From the NCBI GenBank assembly GCA_029239975.1, contig JARBTX010000004.1, forward strand, positions 1 to 64,000: 64,000 nucleotides of DNA, in the 5' to 3' direction. Source of the DNA: Anaerocolumna sp. (GTDB lineage Bacteria > Bacillota > Clostridia > Lachnospirales > Lachnospiraceae). The notes under the pieces are model-generated. The model ran no database searches and had not been told where the DNA came from. It saw only the letters and a program-made list of their open reading frames with translations. Of this stretch, positions 4,625-63,358 are shown piece by piece. The translations under genes and the position numbers were made by a program. Positions within the stretch are counted from its first letter, which is position 1. Every line of letters starts with the position of its first letter.

Positions 4625-5107
4625 CAACATATACGAATTTTCTAGCTTCAGATGCTCAAACCGGCAAGATTCAGCTAGAAACAAGTATATATTGTATAAG
4701 CAATAAGTACATCTATGATGTTTCGCAATAAAAACATAATACATTTGACAATTATGAAACGATAAAGATATTACAAATAACCTTTACCGTTTTATAATAG
4801 CCAAAGTTTTATATCATACTCAAAGACTAGGTTTTATATATCGTGCAGTTAATATAATTTTCAAGCTAAATCTTGCCCGTAGGGCAACTGAAGCTTGAAA
4901 ATTCATATTAACCGTATGATATATTCAATAAACTACATTGTTTCACAATAACCAAACATTACATGGCACTTGTGAAATTCAAAGACTTGGTTTTATATAT
5001 CATGCAGTTAATATAATTTTCAAGCTGAATCTTGCCCGTAGGGCAACTGAAGCTTGAAAATTCATATTAACTACATGATATATTCAATAAACTACATTAT
5101 TTCACAA
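4625..5107. repeat. Three copies of a large palindromic repeat between oppB-like and oppA-like genes (two direct copies, period 159 bp, plus one degenerate inverted copy)
   Basis: Copies at ~4821-4948 and ~4980-5107 near-identical; core cttgcccgtagggcaactgaagct; 4644-4676 agcttcag..ggcaagattcagct is the reverse-complement form. Confidence 0.9.
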
Positions 5108-5123
5108 TTGCCAACCAACACCT

Positions 5124-14970: not shown

Positions 14971-15083
14971 ACTCCATTCTGTCTGCTTTAGCAGACATTT
15001 AAATCAAGATCTGTGAAATTACTTTTTCACAATACTCCATTCTGTCTGCTTTAGCAGACACTTAAATCAAGATCTGAGAAATT
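14971..15083 (-). repeat. Two tandem ~63-bp intercistronic hairpin+SD repeat units (second truncated at upstream stop codon)
   Basis: actccattctgtctgctttagcagacatttaaatcaagatctgtgaaattactttttcacaat followed by near-identical second unit. Confidence 0.9.
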
Positions 15084-17315
15084 CTACTGTATTTCATTAA
15101 CTATGAATGACATGGTAGGAATTATGGTATCACCAAGTTCATAATCCTCGTTTGAATAGTTTATGATAATCTGAACTCCATTCTCATAGACAACGGATAC
15201 AACATTATTATCAACATAGTTATGAGACTGAATTGAAACCCCTTCTACCAAACGAAGAACATCTCCAATCTCCGTATAATACTTTATAATCGTACCTTTT
15301 AAAACATCATACTCTGAGGTATAAATATAAGATGAATTTGTATTTCTTAAAAGATTCGGTGACTCTTCAGTTAATATAAAACTTGGGTAAGCACCATACT
15401 CTATCATTTTCAAGAAAAATTGTTTCTCATTTGCCTCAAAATTGCTATAGGAAGCCCAGTAAGGAATATAACCTTTTAATACCATTGGTATAAAGGGAAC
15501 TTCTTCACTAAGGTAACTATAATTAGAAGTTGATAAAGGCATATCAAAATATTTATTTGCATATTCCCATGTATAATCGGCTGGTTGCTCTAAGGAGAGG
15601 TTTACAGTATCAAATGTTTCCAAGGTTTCAAGCATTTTACTTGCCGTATCCCCTCTAGAGTAGATATCACCACCGGAGTAATAAGAAAACAGTGTATTTG
15701 ATACCTTTGATAAAGCAACATTCTTCACTACAGTATCTTCATATCTTTTCATAAATCTTTTTGCAAACTCAAACGATCTTGATGGTGTAAGATAATACAT
15801 ACTATCAAAAACCCAAGCATTTGTTGGTTCTTCTACTATGATTTGATTAATTCCTTTTACGATATCGGATGATGTATTATAAAATCTTTTCGGATTTGCC
15901 CACAACAGATCTTGATTAAGCACTAAGTCAATATCTTGTTTATTAAGTTTTTCTATTAGCGCAAATAGTTCTCTTTGACTTCCAAGTTTTCTCTCAACTT
16001 TAAAGTTACCACTTCCATAGTTTAGCGATACACCTTTTGTTTGCCACCCAGTATAAACCGGAAGTATATCCTTAACGTCATCTTTGGTTAAATCAGTAAT
16101 AATAGAATCCATTTGACCTACTGTTGTCATAGGGACAACAACATCAAATATAAACCACTTTTTCGAATCTGCACCAAAGAAATCTAATTTTACTTCAAAT
16201 TTATCTTCTTGTTTTTGTAAATCACCTTTACCAATAAGATAATCTTGATAGGTTTTAGCTAATCCTGTATAATTTGCTGCATCACCTGATACAAATTGAT
16301 AACGTATACCAATGTCTCTTATGTAAGGTGTTTTTTCAAAGGTTGGTACACCCGACGACTCCGCTGTTTGCATAGTATAGATTTCTCTAAAATTAAATTT
16401 AGCTGATAACCAGTTATATTCAGTTGTCACGCCATTCGGGTATGCTAAAATTTCCGCATTGTATTGTCCATCTGTAACAATTCCAAGAAACCCTTGTGCC
16501 TTTTTGGTGTAAACCATTCCAAATACAGGTACTGTTATTTTCTCTGGTTCTGTTACCGCTGGTCGGTAGGATTCGCTAACTTGAAATTTATCAATTCCAA
16601 CATTAGCTCCATATATCTTTTTAATATAAGGAGTTTTAAATTTACCGTGGTTATCTTTTAAATCAATTAATGCACCTGCACCTTCTGGCACAAACATATA
16701 TCCAGCTTCCGAGTCCTTACTTGTTGCGCCAAACATAGGATAAAGATAAATGGAACCAAGTTTATAGGTTTCCCCTTCTTTCATGCTATCTTTTTTTACG
16801 TTGGCAGTCATACCACTTTCTTGTAACCTTACTTCTAAACACATACTAAATTCATAATTCTTGTAATTAAGTGTTACATCAAAACCATCTTTATAAAAGA
16901 GAAATGTTTTCTCTGGATTACCTTTTAATAAATCAACACGTTCTGGCATAGTGGAACGCTGACTATAAAACTCAACTGAAACTCCAGAATTTAAAAATCC
17001 TTTCCAGGATTCATTAGAACTCTCGTCCTGTTTTGTTGACTCATATATGAAACCTGTTTTTTTATCCTTAATTTCAACCCCAAGAGTTGTTTCGTCCAGA
17101 TACATTATGTATTCGTCATTTTCAAACGTTACATTTCCTTCACTATTTCTAATTGCAGCTTGGGGGTCTATCACTGGATTATTCGTATCTGCACTCTCAA
17201 AAGTGATTAAACGATCTGATTTATTCGCTAAAACCATAACACTTATGCTAGTAAGTAATGTAATCGTAAGAATACCTGTTACAATCCCTAGGACTATACG
17301 TTTTCTATTTGCCAC
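15084..17315 (-). CDS. DUF5696-like membrane-anchored extracytoplasmic protein
   Basis: N-terminal TM then ~700 aa extracellular region; YIMYLDETTLGVEIKDKKTGFIYES, GYMFVPEGAGALIDL. GTG start at 17315 with SD aaggagg. Confidence 0.7.
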   Translation of the reverse strand: MANRKRIVLGIVTGILTITLLTSISVMVLANKSDRLITFESADTNNPVIDPQAAIRNSEGNVTFENDEYIMYLDETTLGVEIKDKKTGFIYESTKQDESSNESWKGFLNSGVSVEFYSQRSTMPERVDLLKGNPEKTFLFYKDGFDVTLNYKNYEFSMCLEVRLQESGMTANVKKDSMKEGETYKLGSIYLYPMFGATSKDSEAGYMFVPEGAGALIDLKDNHGKFKTPYIKKIYGANVGIDKFQVSESYRPAVTEPEKITVPVFGMVYTKKAQGFLGIVTDGQYNAEILAYPNGVTTEYNWLSAKFNFREIYTMQTAESSGVPTFEKTPYIRDIGIRYQFVSGDAANYTGLAKTYQDYLIGKGDLQKQEDKFEVKLDFFGADSKKWFIFDVVVPMTTVGQMDSIITDLTKDDVKDILPVYTGWQTKGVSLNYGSGNFKVERKLGSQRELFALIEKLNKQDIDLVLNQDLLWANPKRFYNTSSDIVKGINQIIVEEPTNAWVFDSMYYLTPSRSFEFAKRFMKRYEDTVVKNVALSKVSNTLFSYYSGGDIYSRGDTASKMLETLETFDTVNLSLEQPADYTWEYANKYFDMPLSTSNYSYLSEEVPFIPMVLKGYIPYWASYSNFEANEKQFFLKMIEYGAYPSFILTEESPNLLRNTNSSYIYTSEYDVLKGTIIKYYTEIGDVLRLVEGVSIQSHNYVDNNVVSVVYENGVQIIINYSNEDYELGDTIIPTMSFIVNEIQ

Positions 17316-19359: not shown

Positions 19360-20247
19360 CTAATCGTCCTTAAATATTTTCCTTGAAACCTTAGAAATAC
19401 TATATATGATGACCAAAAGTACTAACGATACTGCGGAAGCATATCCCATTTCATACCTTATAAACCCGTAATCTTCTATGTGATTAACCATAAGTTGTCC
19501 AGCATAATTTGGTGTTGGGTTACTACCACTTAATTGAACTCCGATTGCACCAACTGAAAATGTATTGACTACAGCCATAACTGCTGCGAATAACATCTGG
19601 GGTTTCATCATTGGTATGGTGATATAAAACATTTCCTGAAATCTGTTACGTAATCCATCAATGGATGCAGCTTCATAAACTTGTGTATCTATATTTAAAA
19701 TACCTGCAAGTATGGCTAAAAAACCAACACCCATACTACTCCATAATGATACAACTATCATGATAAGAAGTAGGTATTTTCCATCTGTTAAAAAGAGTAG
19801 TGGATCATTAATTATCCCCATATCCATAAGTAGATAATTAATATATCCCATCTGATCTCCAGCAAAAATGATTTTCCAAACTACAGCCATTGCTACACCG
19901 GATGTTAAGGAAGGAGAATATATTAATAATGCCAATATCGTTCTTGGTATCTTATCAATTTGTGCTAACATCCATGCCAATAGAAAGGATAGAGCATATC
20001 CTACTGGCCCAACTATCAATGCAAATATACATGTATTAGGTAAGACTTTCTGCATAAAAACATCATCTTGGGTTAGTAAGTTTATGTAATTTAACAGTCC
20101 AATAAATTTAGGTGTTTGTACTGCATCGTAATTAGTAAAACCTAATATAATAGCTGCTCCAATTGGTATTACTATAAAAACTAGGAACAATAGGAGATAT
20201 GGTAGCAAAAAATAATAAGCTACATTTATTTTAAATTTGTTTTTCAT
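19360..20247 (-). CDS. Sugar ABC transporter permease (UgpA-like)
   Basis: [33 protein letters not shown] motif; start at 20247 preferred because gggag at 20252-20256 is the SD. Confidence 0.92.
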
Positions 20248-20251
20248 TGCA

Positions 20252-20306
20252 ACTCCCATCAGCCTCTTTTAGGCGATTCAATCAATAAGTTGAAACTAGG
20301 GTTCAA
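20252..20306 (-). repeat. Third, diverged copy of the hairpin-TTGATT-hairpin-SD intercistronic element
   Basis: Minus strand: GTTGAACCCTAGTTTCAACTTATTGATTGAATCGCCTAAAAGAGGCTGATGGGAGT, ending in the SD of the downstream permease. Confidence 0.7.
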
Positions 20307-41968: not shown

Positions 41969-42895
41969 TTATTTTACTACCACACCACCTAATATACAGG
42001 TGCCATTTATAAAAACAGTATAACTACCAGTACCATTATCATACGGTGGAATCGCCTTATTGTCCACGCCGCCAAGGATTGGAGTGCAATTTACCATTAC
42101 TCTTACATTAGCTGGTACAAAAATATCGATTCCGCCAAGGATACATGTAGTATCGATAACAGCATCACCATTAAAGATAGCTTTTCTCAAATCCAATTGC
42201 ATATTTCCTAAAATCGAGCTGATCACTGCACCAGTAAAAACCTCATCAGAATACTGTACATTTCTTCCACCTAAAATAGAAGAAAAATGATTATTTCCAC
42301 CATGGTTTGTACTACCTGCAGAAGTATGATAATTACCAGAATAATAATTATTTGAATTATAATTATTTGTATCATTATTATCTGTGCTGTTATTATTTGT
42401 GTTATAATTATTGGTTTCGTTGTTATTTGTATTATAATTGTTCGTATTATAACTGTTTGTATCGTTGTCATTTGTATTATAATTGTTCGTATTATAACTA
42501 TTTGTATCGTTATTATTTGTATTATAATTATTCGAGTTACTATTCGATGAATCAGAATTTTGGTACTTGTTGTAATCTTTTCTTGATCCTCTTGTAATAA
42601 TTGAATATCCTAAGACTATAAATAGTAACGCTATAAAAAGTCTTGAGAACATGTACCAATGAAAGATACCTTGAGCCGATAACAATAATAAAATACCAAC
42701 ACCAAGTCCTATCAAACTTGCAGAACGATTTCTCTTTTCTGATAATCCAATGATACATGGTATAATTATAAATAATGTCCACCAACCACTAAAAAAGATA
42801 TTAAACTCTATTATTCCAAAAGCTTTTCCAGCAAAGAATAAACCTAGTAAAACAAAAATTGAACCCCATGTAGCTCTGGCCACTGTATTTTTCAT
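41969..42895 (-). CDS. LiaF-like/cell wall-active antibiotic response membrane protein with Asn/Thr/Tyr-rich linker
   Basis: N-terminal TMs (IFVLLGLFFAGKAFGI), C-terminal ILGGIDIFVPANVRVMVNCTPILGGVDNK motif. Confidence 0.8.
   Translation of the reverse strand: MKNTVARATWGSIFVLLGLFFAGKAFGIIEFNIFFSGWWTLFIIIPCIIGLSEKRNRSASLIGLGVGILLLLSAQGIFHWYMFSRLFIALLFIVLGYSIITRGSRKDYNKYQNSDSSNSNSNNYNTNNNDTNSYNTNNYNTNDNDTNSYNTNNYNTNNNETNNYNTNNNSTDNNDTNNYNSNNYYSGNYHTSAGSTNHGGNNHFSSILGGRNVQYSDEVFTGAVISSILGNMQLDLRKAIFNGDAVIDTTCILGGIDIFVPANVRVMVNCTPILGGVDNKAIPPYDNGTGSYTVFINGTCILGGVVVK
42340..42540 (-). repeat. Low-complexity tandem repeat encoding (NTNNNDTNSYNTNNY)n
   Basis: Repeated attattgtattataattgttcgtattataac units within the LiaF-like CDS. 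Confidence 0.85.
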
Positions 42896-43016
42896 AAGAT
42901 AACCCCCATCTAGGATAAAATCGTAAAACAATATTGTTTTACAAAACTATTTAAATACATCAATTACTATACTACATACTATCATAAATGTAAAAAGTAT
43001 TTTTTTCAAGAGTAGA

Positions 43017-48840: not shown

Positions 48841-49066
48841 AAAACTTTACTATGTAAAACCGCTCCTTGCTGTTTATTTCTAACTGCATTTTGATGTTCT
48901 TAAATTAAAAATTTAATAATGATACTGCTCCTTGTCTTTTGTTTTCTAACAGTATTTTGATGTTCTTAAATTATAAATTTTACTATGTAATACTGCTCTT
49001 TATCTTTTGATTTCTAACAGTATTTTGATGTGCTTAAATAATTTTACAATATAAAAGCTCCCTATC
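48841..49066. repeat. Degenerate ~65-bp tandem repeat, three copies and a partial fourth
   Basis: tactatgtaataCtGCTCcttgtcttttgttttctaacagtattttgatgttcttaaatta repeated with gctc at 48862, 48927, 48995, 49057. Confidence 0.8.
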
Positions 49067-60183: not shown

Positions 60184-60240
60184 AAGCCGACGTGTTGATA
60201 CATTAATTTATAACTTACCAACACATCGGCTATTATTTTT
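60184..60240. terminator. Terminator between convergent genes
   Basis: AGCCGACGTGTTG ... CAACACATCGGCTATTATTTTTATTTTT. Confidence 0.75.
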
Positions 60241-60886
60241 ATTTTTCACTTTCTGTATCTTCTGTAGCATTTTCTGAAACAAACTCATCATTTGATTCTG
60301 CTTTGATCATGACTTCTTCAATACACTCCCAAATCTCATCTCTACCTTGTTTTGAAAGGGAAGAAAATGGAATAATTTTTGTGCCTGGTTCCGTTTTCAA
60401 CCCGTTTCGAATCATTTTTATATGTTTATCTTTTTGACTACGATTAATTTTATCAAACTTCGTAGCGATGATAATAGGATGATAACCATTATACACAACC
60501 CATTCATACATATTTCGATCATTCGCAGATGGTTCATGCCTGATATCAATTAAGAGAAAAATAATCTTTAATTGTTTGGATGTTGTAAGATATTTTTCGA
60601 TTAATTTACCCCATTTTGCTTTCAATTCTTCTGAGACTTTGGCATAGCCATAACCTGGCAAGTCAACAAAATATAATTCTTCATTAATATTGTAAAAGTT
60701 TATAGTTTGGGTTTTCCCTGGTTGTGCAGATGTTCTTGCATAAGCTTTACGATTCATTAATGCATTGATTAGAGATGATTTACCAACATTTGATTTGCCA
60801 GCAAATGCAATCTCTATTTTATCATTCTCAGGTAAAACACTGGTTACACCACAAACCGTTTCCAGATTAACACTCTTAACATGCAT
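60239..60886 (-). CDS. engB: Ribosome biogenesis GTP-binding protein EngB/YsxC
   Basis: FAGKSNVGKSSLINALMNRK, FVDLPGYGYAKV, TKFDKI. Confidence 0.96.
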   Translation of the reverse strand: MHVKSVNLETVCGVTSVLPENDKIEIAFAGKSNVGKSSLINALMNRKAYARTSAQPGKTQTINFYNINEELYFVDLPGYGYAKVSEELKAKWGKLIEKYLTTSKQLKIIFLLIDIRHEPSANDRNMYEWVVYNGYHPIIIATKFDKINRSQKDKHIKMIRNGLKTEPGTKIIPFSSLSKQGRDEIWECIEEVMIKAESNDEFVSENATEDTESEK

Positions 60887-60890
60887 AAAA

Positions 60891-61042
60891 ACTCCCGTCT
60901 GCCTGCTTTGCAGGCATTAAAATCAAGACTGTGAAGTACTTTTCTTCACATACTCCCGTCCGCCTGCGTTAGCAGGCATTTAAATCAAGACTGTGAAGTA
61001 CTTTTCTTCACATTATCCCAGTCTGCCTGAGTAAGCAGGCTC
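60891..61042 (-). repeat. Tandem ~61-63-bp hairpin+SD repeats (two full units and a partial third) between lon and engB
   Basis: Units at 60891-60951, 60952-61014, 61015-61042; actcccgtctgcctgctttgcaggcattaaaatcaagactgtgaagtacttttcttcacat. Confidence 0.92.
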
Positions 61043-63358
61043 TTATTTTACTAGCGCATTTTCTAATACTTCATCCATAGAATCTGCAAAAATTATTTGA
61101 ATTCCATCGGTTATTTCATTTGACAATTCATCAATATCTTTTCTATTTTGCTTTGGTACGATTACCAGCTTAATTTTAGCAGCTTTCGCAGCAAGTACCT
61201 TTTCTTTTAGTCCACCAATTGGAAGTACTCTACCTCTTAGCGTGATTTCACCTGTCATAGCAACATCCGCACGAACTTCTTTTTTAATAATTGCTGAAAG
61301 CATAGCGGTCGCCATGGTAATACCTGCAGATGGGCCATCTTTTGGAACTGCACCTTCAGGGATATGAATATGAATATCGTGCTTTTCAAAATAATCTTCC
61401 GGTATTTGGTATTTTTCACTTACTGAACGAATATAACTAATACCTGCTCTAGCAGATTCCTTCATAACATCCCCGAGTTGCCCAGTTAGTTCAAATTTTC
61501 CTTTACCTGGCATAACATTTACTTCAATTTGTAAAGTGTCTCCACCAAAACTTGTCCAAGCAAGTCCTCTTACAATTCCAATTTCATCTTTATCGTTTGA
61601 CATTTGGAATGTATATTTTTCTTTACCTAGATATTTTTCTAAGTTCTTATCATTAATACGTATTTGTACTTTTTCTTCGGTGATTAACTCTTTTGCGGCT
61701 TTTCTACAAACTTCACTTATCTTACGTTCTAAATTACGAACACCAGCTTCCTTTGTATAACCTAAAATAATACGAGTTAACGCTTTATCTGATATTACAA
61801 GCTGTTTATCCTTTAATCCATTTTTCTTCATCTGCTTTGCCACTAGGTGTTTCTTAGCTATATGAAGTTTTTCATTCTCTGTATAACTAGTTACTTCAAT
61901 TAATTCCATACGATCTAATAATGGTCTTGGAATCGTTTGAATCGAATTAGCAGTTGCTATAAATAGCACTTCAGATAAATCAACTGGTATTTCAATATAA
62001 TGATCCACAAATTTACTATTCTGTTCTGAGTCTAAAACCTCAAGTAGTGCTGCCGAAGTATCACCTTTATAATCACTACTTACTTTATCAATTTCATCTA
62101 ATAACATAAGTGGATTCTTAACACCAGTATTTTTCAAACCATTCACAATACGTCCTGGAAGAGCACCTATATAAGTTCTTCTATGTCCTCTTATTTCAGC
62201 TTCATCTCTTACTCCGCCTAAACTAATACGCACATATTCTTTATCTAAAGCTTTTGCAACAGAACGTGCAATGGAAGTTTTACCTGTTCCAGGTGGTCCA
62301 ACTAGACAAAGTATAGGACTATCTCCTTTTTCAGTTAAGGTTCTTACTGCTAAAAATTCAAGTATTCTGGTTTTCACTTTTTCTAAACCATAATGGTCTT
62401 TATCCAATATTTTTTCAGCATTTTTAATATCTGATTTGTCTTTACTGACTTTATCCCAAGGTAATGCCAATAATGTTTCGATATATCCCCTTGATACACT
62501 ACTTTCTGATGAATTACCAGTCAAATTTTTAAATCGGTCTATTTCTTTTAAGATTTTATCTTTTACATCTTGTTTCGCTTCTAATTCATACACTGCACTG
62601 GTGTAATTTTCTGCATCAGTAGCTGTATTGGTTTCACCGAGTTCTTCTCGAATTACTTTCAATTGCTCCCTTAAAAGATACTCTTTTTGGTTTTTATCTA
62701 CTTTTTCTTTTACTTTGTTTTGTAACTCTCTTTTTATTCGTAAAATATCTATTTCTTCTGTTAAAATAACAGTAATCGTTTGATAACGTTCAATGATATT
62801 AGCAGCTTCTATTATACTTTGTTTTTGTTCAATGGTTAAAGGAATATTTATAGCTATTTGGTCAACTAATTCTTGTACATCATCTATTTTCATAAGTTGC
62901 TTGATCACTTCTTTTGCAATCTTAGAATTTTCTATGGAATATACCTCTAATATATCTTTTAATCCCCTAATCATAGCTTTTTTTTCTAATTCATTTAAAC
63001 GTATTTCATTATGTTGTTCTAAACTTTCAATTTCTCCGAATAAAAAGGATTGCTCATCAATTAATTCAAGAACCTTCGCACGTTCCTTACCCGTTACTAA
63101 AACTCGGATTACATTTCCCGGTAATTTTACCATCTGCTTAATTTCAGCTAAGGTACCAACTTGATATAAATCGTCTATACTTGGATTTTCGACTTCAGAA
63201 TCTTTCTGTGTTAATAATAAAACAGTCTGATCATTTTCCATTGCATTTTCAACTGCATCAATGGATATTTTACGATTCACATCAAAATGAATTAACATAC
63301 CTGGAAGAACTGCCATCCCTCTTAAAGCTACAACCGGAACTCTTCTATTATCACTCAT
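61043..63358 (-). CDS. lon: ATP-dependent protease Lon
   Basis: [33 protein letters not shown] catalytic Ser. Confidence 0.98.

Follow-up and report, generated by a model that had tools for sequence, protein, structure and literature searches.

A Dispersed, Tandemly Duplicated RNA Module Carries the Shine-Dalgarno Sequence Between lon and engB in Anaerocolumna and Has Relatives in Some Lachnospiraceae

Introduction

Dispersed bacterial repeats are usually taken to be neutral, or else to influence recombination, DNA structure, or 3' ends. The lon-engB gap of Anaerocolumna sp. raises a different question, namely what kind of element places the ribosome-binding site of a gene inside a repeated pair of hairpins, and whether this arrangement is peculiar to engB. 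The locus was examined within the window, the whole 64 kb stretch of DNA that was analysed, and then in related genomes. Comparative sequence analysis establishes that the feature is a structured, dispersed, and tandemly duplicated RNA module bearing a Shine-Dalgarno (SD) sequence, and it probably acts as a portable ribosome-binding site. In this case the ribosome-binding site itself comes from a covarying RNA element, whose tandem copy number differs between sister species. If the module does tune translation, it would give a major gut family an evolvable means of setting protein output throughout the genome, and would be a candidate portable part in the engineering of Lachnospiraceae; if it is mobile, the SD would represent a safe insertion niche.

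The Element Between lon and engB

The gap is wholly occupied by two full units of 61/62 nt and one partial unit which starts right after the lon stop codon (Table 1), as proposed in the initial annotation, whose sequence, coordinates, and strand for the element are right. The GGGAG of unit 1 is separated from the engB ATG by 5 nt, the spacing given at the outset, and these coordinates agree as well; the identity of the neighbours as Lon and an EngB-type GTPase has Pfam support. Units 1 and 2 share 92% identity over 51 nt. The window units are composed of hairpin 1 (UGUGAAG/CUUCACA), the linker GUCUUGAUUU(U/A)AA, and hairpin 2 (UGCCUGC/GCAGGCA), followed by GACGGGAGU. With the exception of the diverged copy at 20252, they fold better than dinucleotide shuffles (z about -3.5), and the fold of the entire gap reaches a z of -4.7.

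Table 1. Coordinates of the module, its copies, and the adjoining genes in the window.
Feature	Positions	Strand	Remarks
Unit 1	60891-60951	-	Adjoins engB; hairpin 1 at about 60950-60930, hairpin 2 at about 60916-60900
Linker of unit 1, GUCUUGAUUUUAA	about 60929-60917	-	
SD of unit 1, GGGAG	60896-60892	-	
Unit 2	60952-61013	-	Layout as in unit 1; its GGGAG is followed by unit 1, not by a gene
Partial third unit	61014-61042	-	Hairpin 2 (GCCUG/CAGGC) and AGACUGGGA with a GGGA stretch; no hairpin 1, no linker
Full unit	14971-15032	-	Ends 3 nt from the start (ATG, 14967) of an ABC-permease-like gene
5'-truncated unit	15034-15085	-	Directly 3' of a DUF5696 gene (stop at about 15084)
Diverged unit	20252-20306	-	Ends 4 nt from the start (ATG, 20247) of an ABC permease gene
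engB (GTPase)	60239-60886	-	Starts at 60886; SD supplied by unit 1
lon (protease)	61043-63358	-	Upstream cistron; ends at 61043

A DNA search with a single unit gave good matches to the window copies only, so that a covariance model was needed. Three models were used: R1, trained on the five window copies; R2, built from 84 diverse copies; and R3, derived from 40 copies which all belong to other genera and serving as a held-out test of the window. R3 returned exactly five copies in the 64 kb (those starting at 14971, 15034, 60952, 60891, and 20252), with E-values from 2.6e-13 to 6.2e-7, and the best non-element site had an E-value of 0.079. Since the held-out model recovers it (E 6.2e-7), the 20252 copy is real, though weak; it is located between a solute-binding-protein gene and the permease gene, and its SD serves the ATG at 20247 and not the in-frame ATG at 20259, which overlaps the SD.

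Structure and Covariation

The unit plan, of about 60-70 nt, consists of hairpin 1, a single-stranded linker AUC[C/U]UGAUUUNNAU, hairpin 2 (GNGUGC-UAAA-GCACNC), and a 3' end CAGAUGGGAGU. The near-invariant positions are the UGAUU of the linker, the GC/GC pairs atop hairpin 2, and GA-GGAG. Both hairpins covary strongly, and covarying stems had been predicted from the window. In particular, in 84 diverse copies hairpin 2 is paired in 93% of cells and undergoes two-sided changes at five of seven pairs; its covariation score was reached by none of 500 shuffles and collapses in slid registers. The covariation is similar in 136 copies from the genus, and over the two sets the paired fraction is 93-94%. 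The arms of hairpin 1 are variable (91 arm pairs, including GUUGAAAAA/UUUUUCAAC, GUGAAUU/AAUUCAC, UACGAAU/AUUCGUA, and GGCGGAAAG/CUUUCCGCC), and the 5' arm is not alignable by MAFFT; partner swapping was used instead. A stem of at least 6 bp is formed in 167 of 219 copies, compared with 59 of 219 when the 5' sides are shuffled, and runs of at least 7 bp occur in 65% of cases with own partner arms versus 23% with swapped ones.

Two further pairings, mutually exclusive, involve the region around hairpin 2: AUC-GAU, possible in 78% of cells and with weak covariation (G13-C47 association, p 0.002, uncorrected for ancestry), and UCYU-GGGA, possible in 92% of cells and without informative covariation. 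The former would leave the SD free and the latter would mask it, so that together they could give an on/off choice; this two-state pairing of the linker is put forward as a hypothesis. At 37 °C the SD is unpaired with a probability of 0.50 against 0.45 in shuffles, and its pairing probability with the linker is small (0.08; ViennaRNA); the SD being barely more open than in shuffles and the linker pairing so little, thermodynamics alone predict neither a strong switch nor a strong SD presentation. Folding lends no support to simple SD sequestration, since strong self-masking is not predicted.

Distribution and Copy Number

In a set of 146 relatives, R1 matched 13 of the 15 genomes of the window's genus and one genome outside it. 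R2 located the element in 20 of 397 Lachnospiraceae genomes and in 18 of 334 genera, and outside the family it found only two weak sites among 394 genomes of the class; in these family and class scans the copy count of a genome levels off at 15 scored candidates. When 85,488 species genomes were scanned with a pattern, at least 80 loci were returned, and among the matches listed nearly all come from Lachnospiraceae (Parablautia intestinalis, Kineothrix alysoides, Eisenbergiella, a Roseburia MAG, and Anaerocolumna), the other titles being one 'Clostridium sp.' MAG and one 'uncultured bacterium'.

The window's own genome contains five copies only, all inside the window, and the claim of a large family therefore rests on the relatives. 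With R2, the complete congener genome G008 holds 117 copies in 92 arrays, G333 has 35 copies, and G176, from another genus, at least 152; among congeners the number ranges from 0 or 1 up to more than 100. The arrays are head-to-tail direct repeats of up to eight units. The 117 homologous copies at unrelated genes of one genome support the early description of the module as propagating, and the further copies sought by a covariance scan were found in the genomes of relatives.

Some loci deserve separate mention. L252 (G008:C1:3296980-3297516) is composed of eight near-identical units with an exact 70-nt period and is likely a copy-number-variable locus. In the same genome L240, L241, L244, L248, L250, and L263 are variants in which a 15-30-nt insert lengthens hairpin 2, several of them adjoining start codons. 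One unit (L324, 893-941, minus strand) lies on the viral contig IMGVR_UViG_3300048925_000596, 4 nt before an N-acetylmuramoyl-alanine amidase-like ORF, and its hairpin 1, although paired, departs strongly in sequence. In Parablautia and related genomes (L123, L127, L129, L147, L152, L168, L177) an additional hairpin (GGTTGAAAAATAGGCCTGATGGCC..) and CACAAATTTGTGCC-type repeats come after the unit, which suggests larger composite elements.

Position Relative to Start Codons

The positions of the copies were determined independently of genes. In G008, 61 of the 84 arrays for which context is available have their end 3-5 nt from the ATG of a downstream ORF of at least 50 codons, versus 1.3 expected of the same 84 when the loci are slid over distances of up to 300 nt. 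Genus-wide, 68 of 83 have this placement. The initial expectation had been of copies ending 4-6 nt ahead of start codons, and the observed positions agree with it. Roughly one array in four is not adjacent to a start codon. In a sample from GC-richer relatives approximately half of the arrays are start-adjacent, and many of the rest have another hairpin behind them, as units in G176-like and Parablautia genomes often do. Some upstream ORFs terminate within a unit, as lon does in G001 and G006.

The genes downstream encode unrelated products, including FliS, peptidyl-tRNA hydrolase, porphobilinogen deaminase, the exonuclease VII small subunit, CheW, ATP synthase D, an aldehyde dehydrogenase, a peptidase of family S11, and permeases, and no common pathway or coherent function was found among them. 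A pathway-specific riboswitch was rejected on account of these scattered functions. An upstream ORF was also considered and rejected: SD-AUG-UGA or SD-UUG can be read in some units, with a frame and a start codon that vary from one unit to another.

From position, a role in translation initiation can be strongly inferred. The initial interpretation is supported in part, as regards propagation, start-codon placement, and the distinction from a terminator; the effect on translation and the part in mRNA processing that it envisaged are putative.

Comparison with Known Repeats and Leaders

In the window no Rfam 15 family exceeds its gathering cut-off; at permissive thresholds the elements have only sub-threshold, mutually unrelated matches, and four copy-bearing loci of relatives gave no credible Rfam 15 match overlapping the element. 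A full-text literature search yielded no description of the repeat, and the main text of two large ncRNA surveys contains no Lachnospiraceae motif. Like the translational riboswitches and ribosomal-protein leaders of Rfam, the module is a covarying RNA structure which includes the SD and conserved unpaired bases; unlike them, it has no match in Rfam 15, serves no common pathway, forms arrays of up to eight units, and exceeds 100 copies per genome.

Correia, ERIC, BOX, and RUP-type repeats are dispersed intergenic hairpin repeats able to alter mRNA. They are not known to supply an SD at fixed spacing.

The nearest described case is that of the TAACTGA direct repeats of marine Beggiatoaceae and Cyanobacteria, 7 nt in length and organised in numerous sets in each genome (one draft genome contains 169), which are located close upstream of start codons of unrelated genes, have an unknown carrier, and for which translational regulation has been proposed (PMC4679880). 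The Lachnospiraceae arrays resemble them in ending within several nt of start codons (3-5 nt in most G008 arrays) and in their scattered target genes. In contrast, the heptamers have little SD character and SDs are rare beside them (PMC4679880), whereas the unit described here is structured, about 60-70 nt long, contains an SD, and ends in GGGAG.

REP, BIME, and REPIN are short extragenic palindromic repeats, present in high copy and often clustered, which are associated with RAYT (Y1) transposases (PMC3116915, PMC6006769). The present repeats are likewise short, extragenic, hairpin-forming, abundant, and often clustered, but their units are arranged head-to-tail rather than as inverted pairs around a spacer, and their position at start codons is fixed. 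Moreover, the Y1 transposase (PF01797) is absent from G176, with its at least 152 copies, from G010, and from G000, and a REP/RAYT mechanism is disfavoured because these copy-rich genomes do without it.

Origin, Rival Explanations, and Proposed Function

Mean identity is 91% between units within an array, 85% between orthologous sites of three sister species, and 69-75% between different arrays of the same genome, with a few pairs of different arrays up to 95% identical. These levels indicate that arrays grow by recent tandem duplication, that many sites are old and inherited, and that some dispersal is recent. Copy number changes also at inherited sites: at apgM the sister species G012, G014, and G011 have two, one, and two cores, respectively.

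A selfish miniature DNA element, for which SDs are the insertion target and are regenerated so that insertion is harmless, with hairpins that matter as DNA in transposition, is a possible but tentative reading. SD-targeted insertion would directly yield the fixed spacing, the orientation, and the head-to-tail arrays. Of 99 first units, 53 also have an SD-like motif in the 15 nt 5' to hairpin 1, compared with about 13 of 96 (range 9-17) in control stretches further up; 17 of the 53 resemble remnants of an earlier unit. The motif fits insertion into, or duplication of, an SD, and hints at SD-targeted insertion. The copy on a viral contig points the same way. On the other side, no transposase is linked to the element and PF01797 is missing from the copy-rich genomes named above, the dispersed copies are mostly old, and a clean empty/filled insertion site was not found at engB, recG, or apgM, where the flanks are too diverged between genomes.

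It is rather doubtful that the units are operators of a global, CsrA-like post-transcriptional regulon, in which one RNA-binding protein or small RNA would read the UGAUU linker and hairpin 2 and control the translation of dozens of genes. The conserved unpaired linker and the orientation at start codons are consistent with such a regulon, as is the retention of sites across species at recG, a hisF-like gene, spoIIIAB, and apgM. The target genes, however, have no coherent function, and no partner was identified. The range of copy numbers among congeners would be unusual for a regulon, as would the turnover of sites: G000, G001, and G006 carry the element at engB, G003 retains a remnant of hairpin 2 plus SD, and in most congeners the element is missing and another SD-bearing sequence precedes the gene.

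An element of mRNA processing or stability, cut or bound at its hairpins by RNases and so tuning the segmental stability of operon mRNAs, is improbable. The hairpins are stable, and at least 35 of the 61 start-adjacent G008 arrays have a same-strand gene no more than 150 nt upstream, so that most are intercistronic; however, 14 of the 61 have no same-strand gene within 400 nt, and neither the fixed SD-AUG spacing nor the conserved unpaired linker would be explained. Ordinary intrinsic terminators or operon attenuators can be set aside, as the initial annotation had done: the hairpins are GC-rich and occupy intercistronic gaps, but hairpin 2 is followed by CAGAUGGGAGU (GGGAGU-N3-5-AUG) and not by a U-tract, and conservation extends outside the stems and is coupled to the AUG.

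The portable ribosome-binding site remains the preferred reading. The gene-proximal unit supplies the SD of its gene at a near-fixed 3-5 nt from the AUG; in the mRNA, the two self-contained hairpins may insulate the initiation region from the upstream cistron and expose GGGAG for the 30S subunit, and the unpaired linker, with its near-invariant UGAUU, is probably read by a trans-acting factor, a component proposed here as a hypothesis. As DNA, the element would spread into existing SDs, or via their duplication, and later expand in tandem, the SD-targeted step being likewise hypothetical. A more far-reaching proposal, advanced with reserve, joins these steps: a mobile element would insert into SDs, regenerate an SD at its own 3' end, become the translation start of the target gene, and multiply head-to-tail, rewiring the translation of dozens to more than 100 genes per genome, possibly under a single linker-reading trans-acting factor.

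Other Repeats in the Window and the Genus

A second, unrelated-looking repeat of the form ATGGCAGTATCGCAGG..CCTGCGATATGCAATGGGTG-NNNN-ATG likewise terminates right before start codons in the genus, at engB of G008 (L108) and at apgM of G007, G006, and G005 (L314, L316, and L322). In the window, a tandem hairpin repeat of three units of about 67 nt (AUACUG..CAGUAU, changed in one unit to AAAAUGC..GCGGUUUU) is located at 48856-49057 on the minus strand, between a terminator-like hairpin, which it closely follows, and the 46805-48661 gene farther downstream, and its stems appear to covary between units. A long, MITE-like, near-perfect palindrome (TATATCATG...GCCCTACGGGC...CATGATATA) occurs twice in the intergenic region 4820-5117, in copies of 139 nt that are 93% alike. 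Finally, a 15-nt repeat array at 42296-42580, within the ORF 41969-42931, probably encodes a low-complexity Asn-rich stretch.
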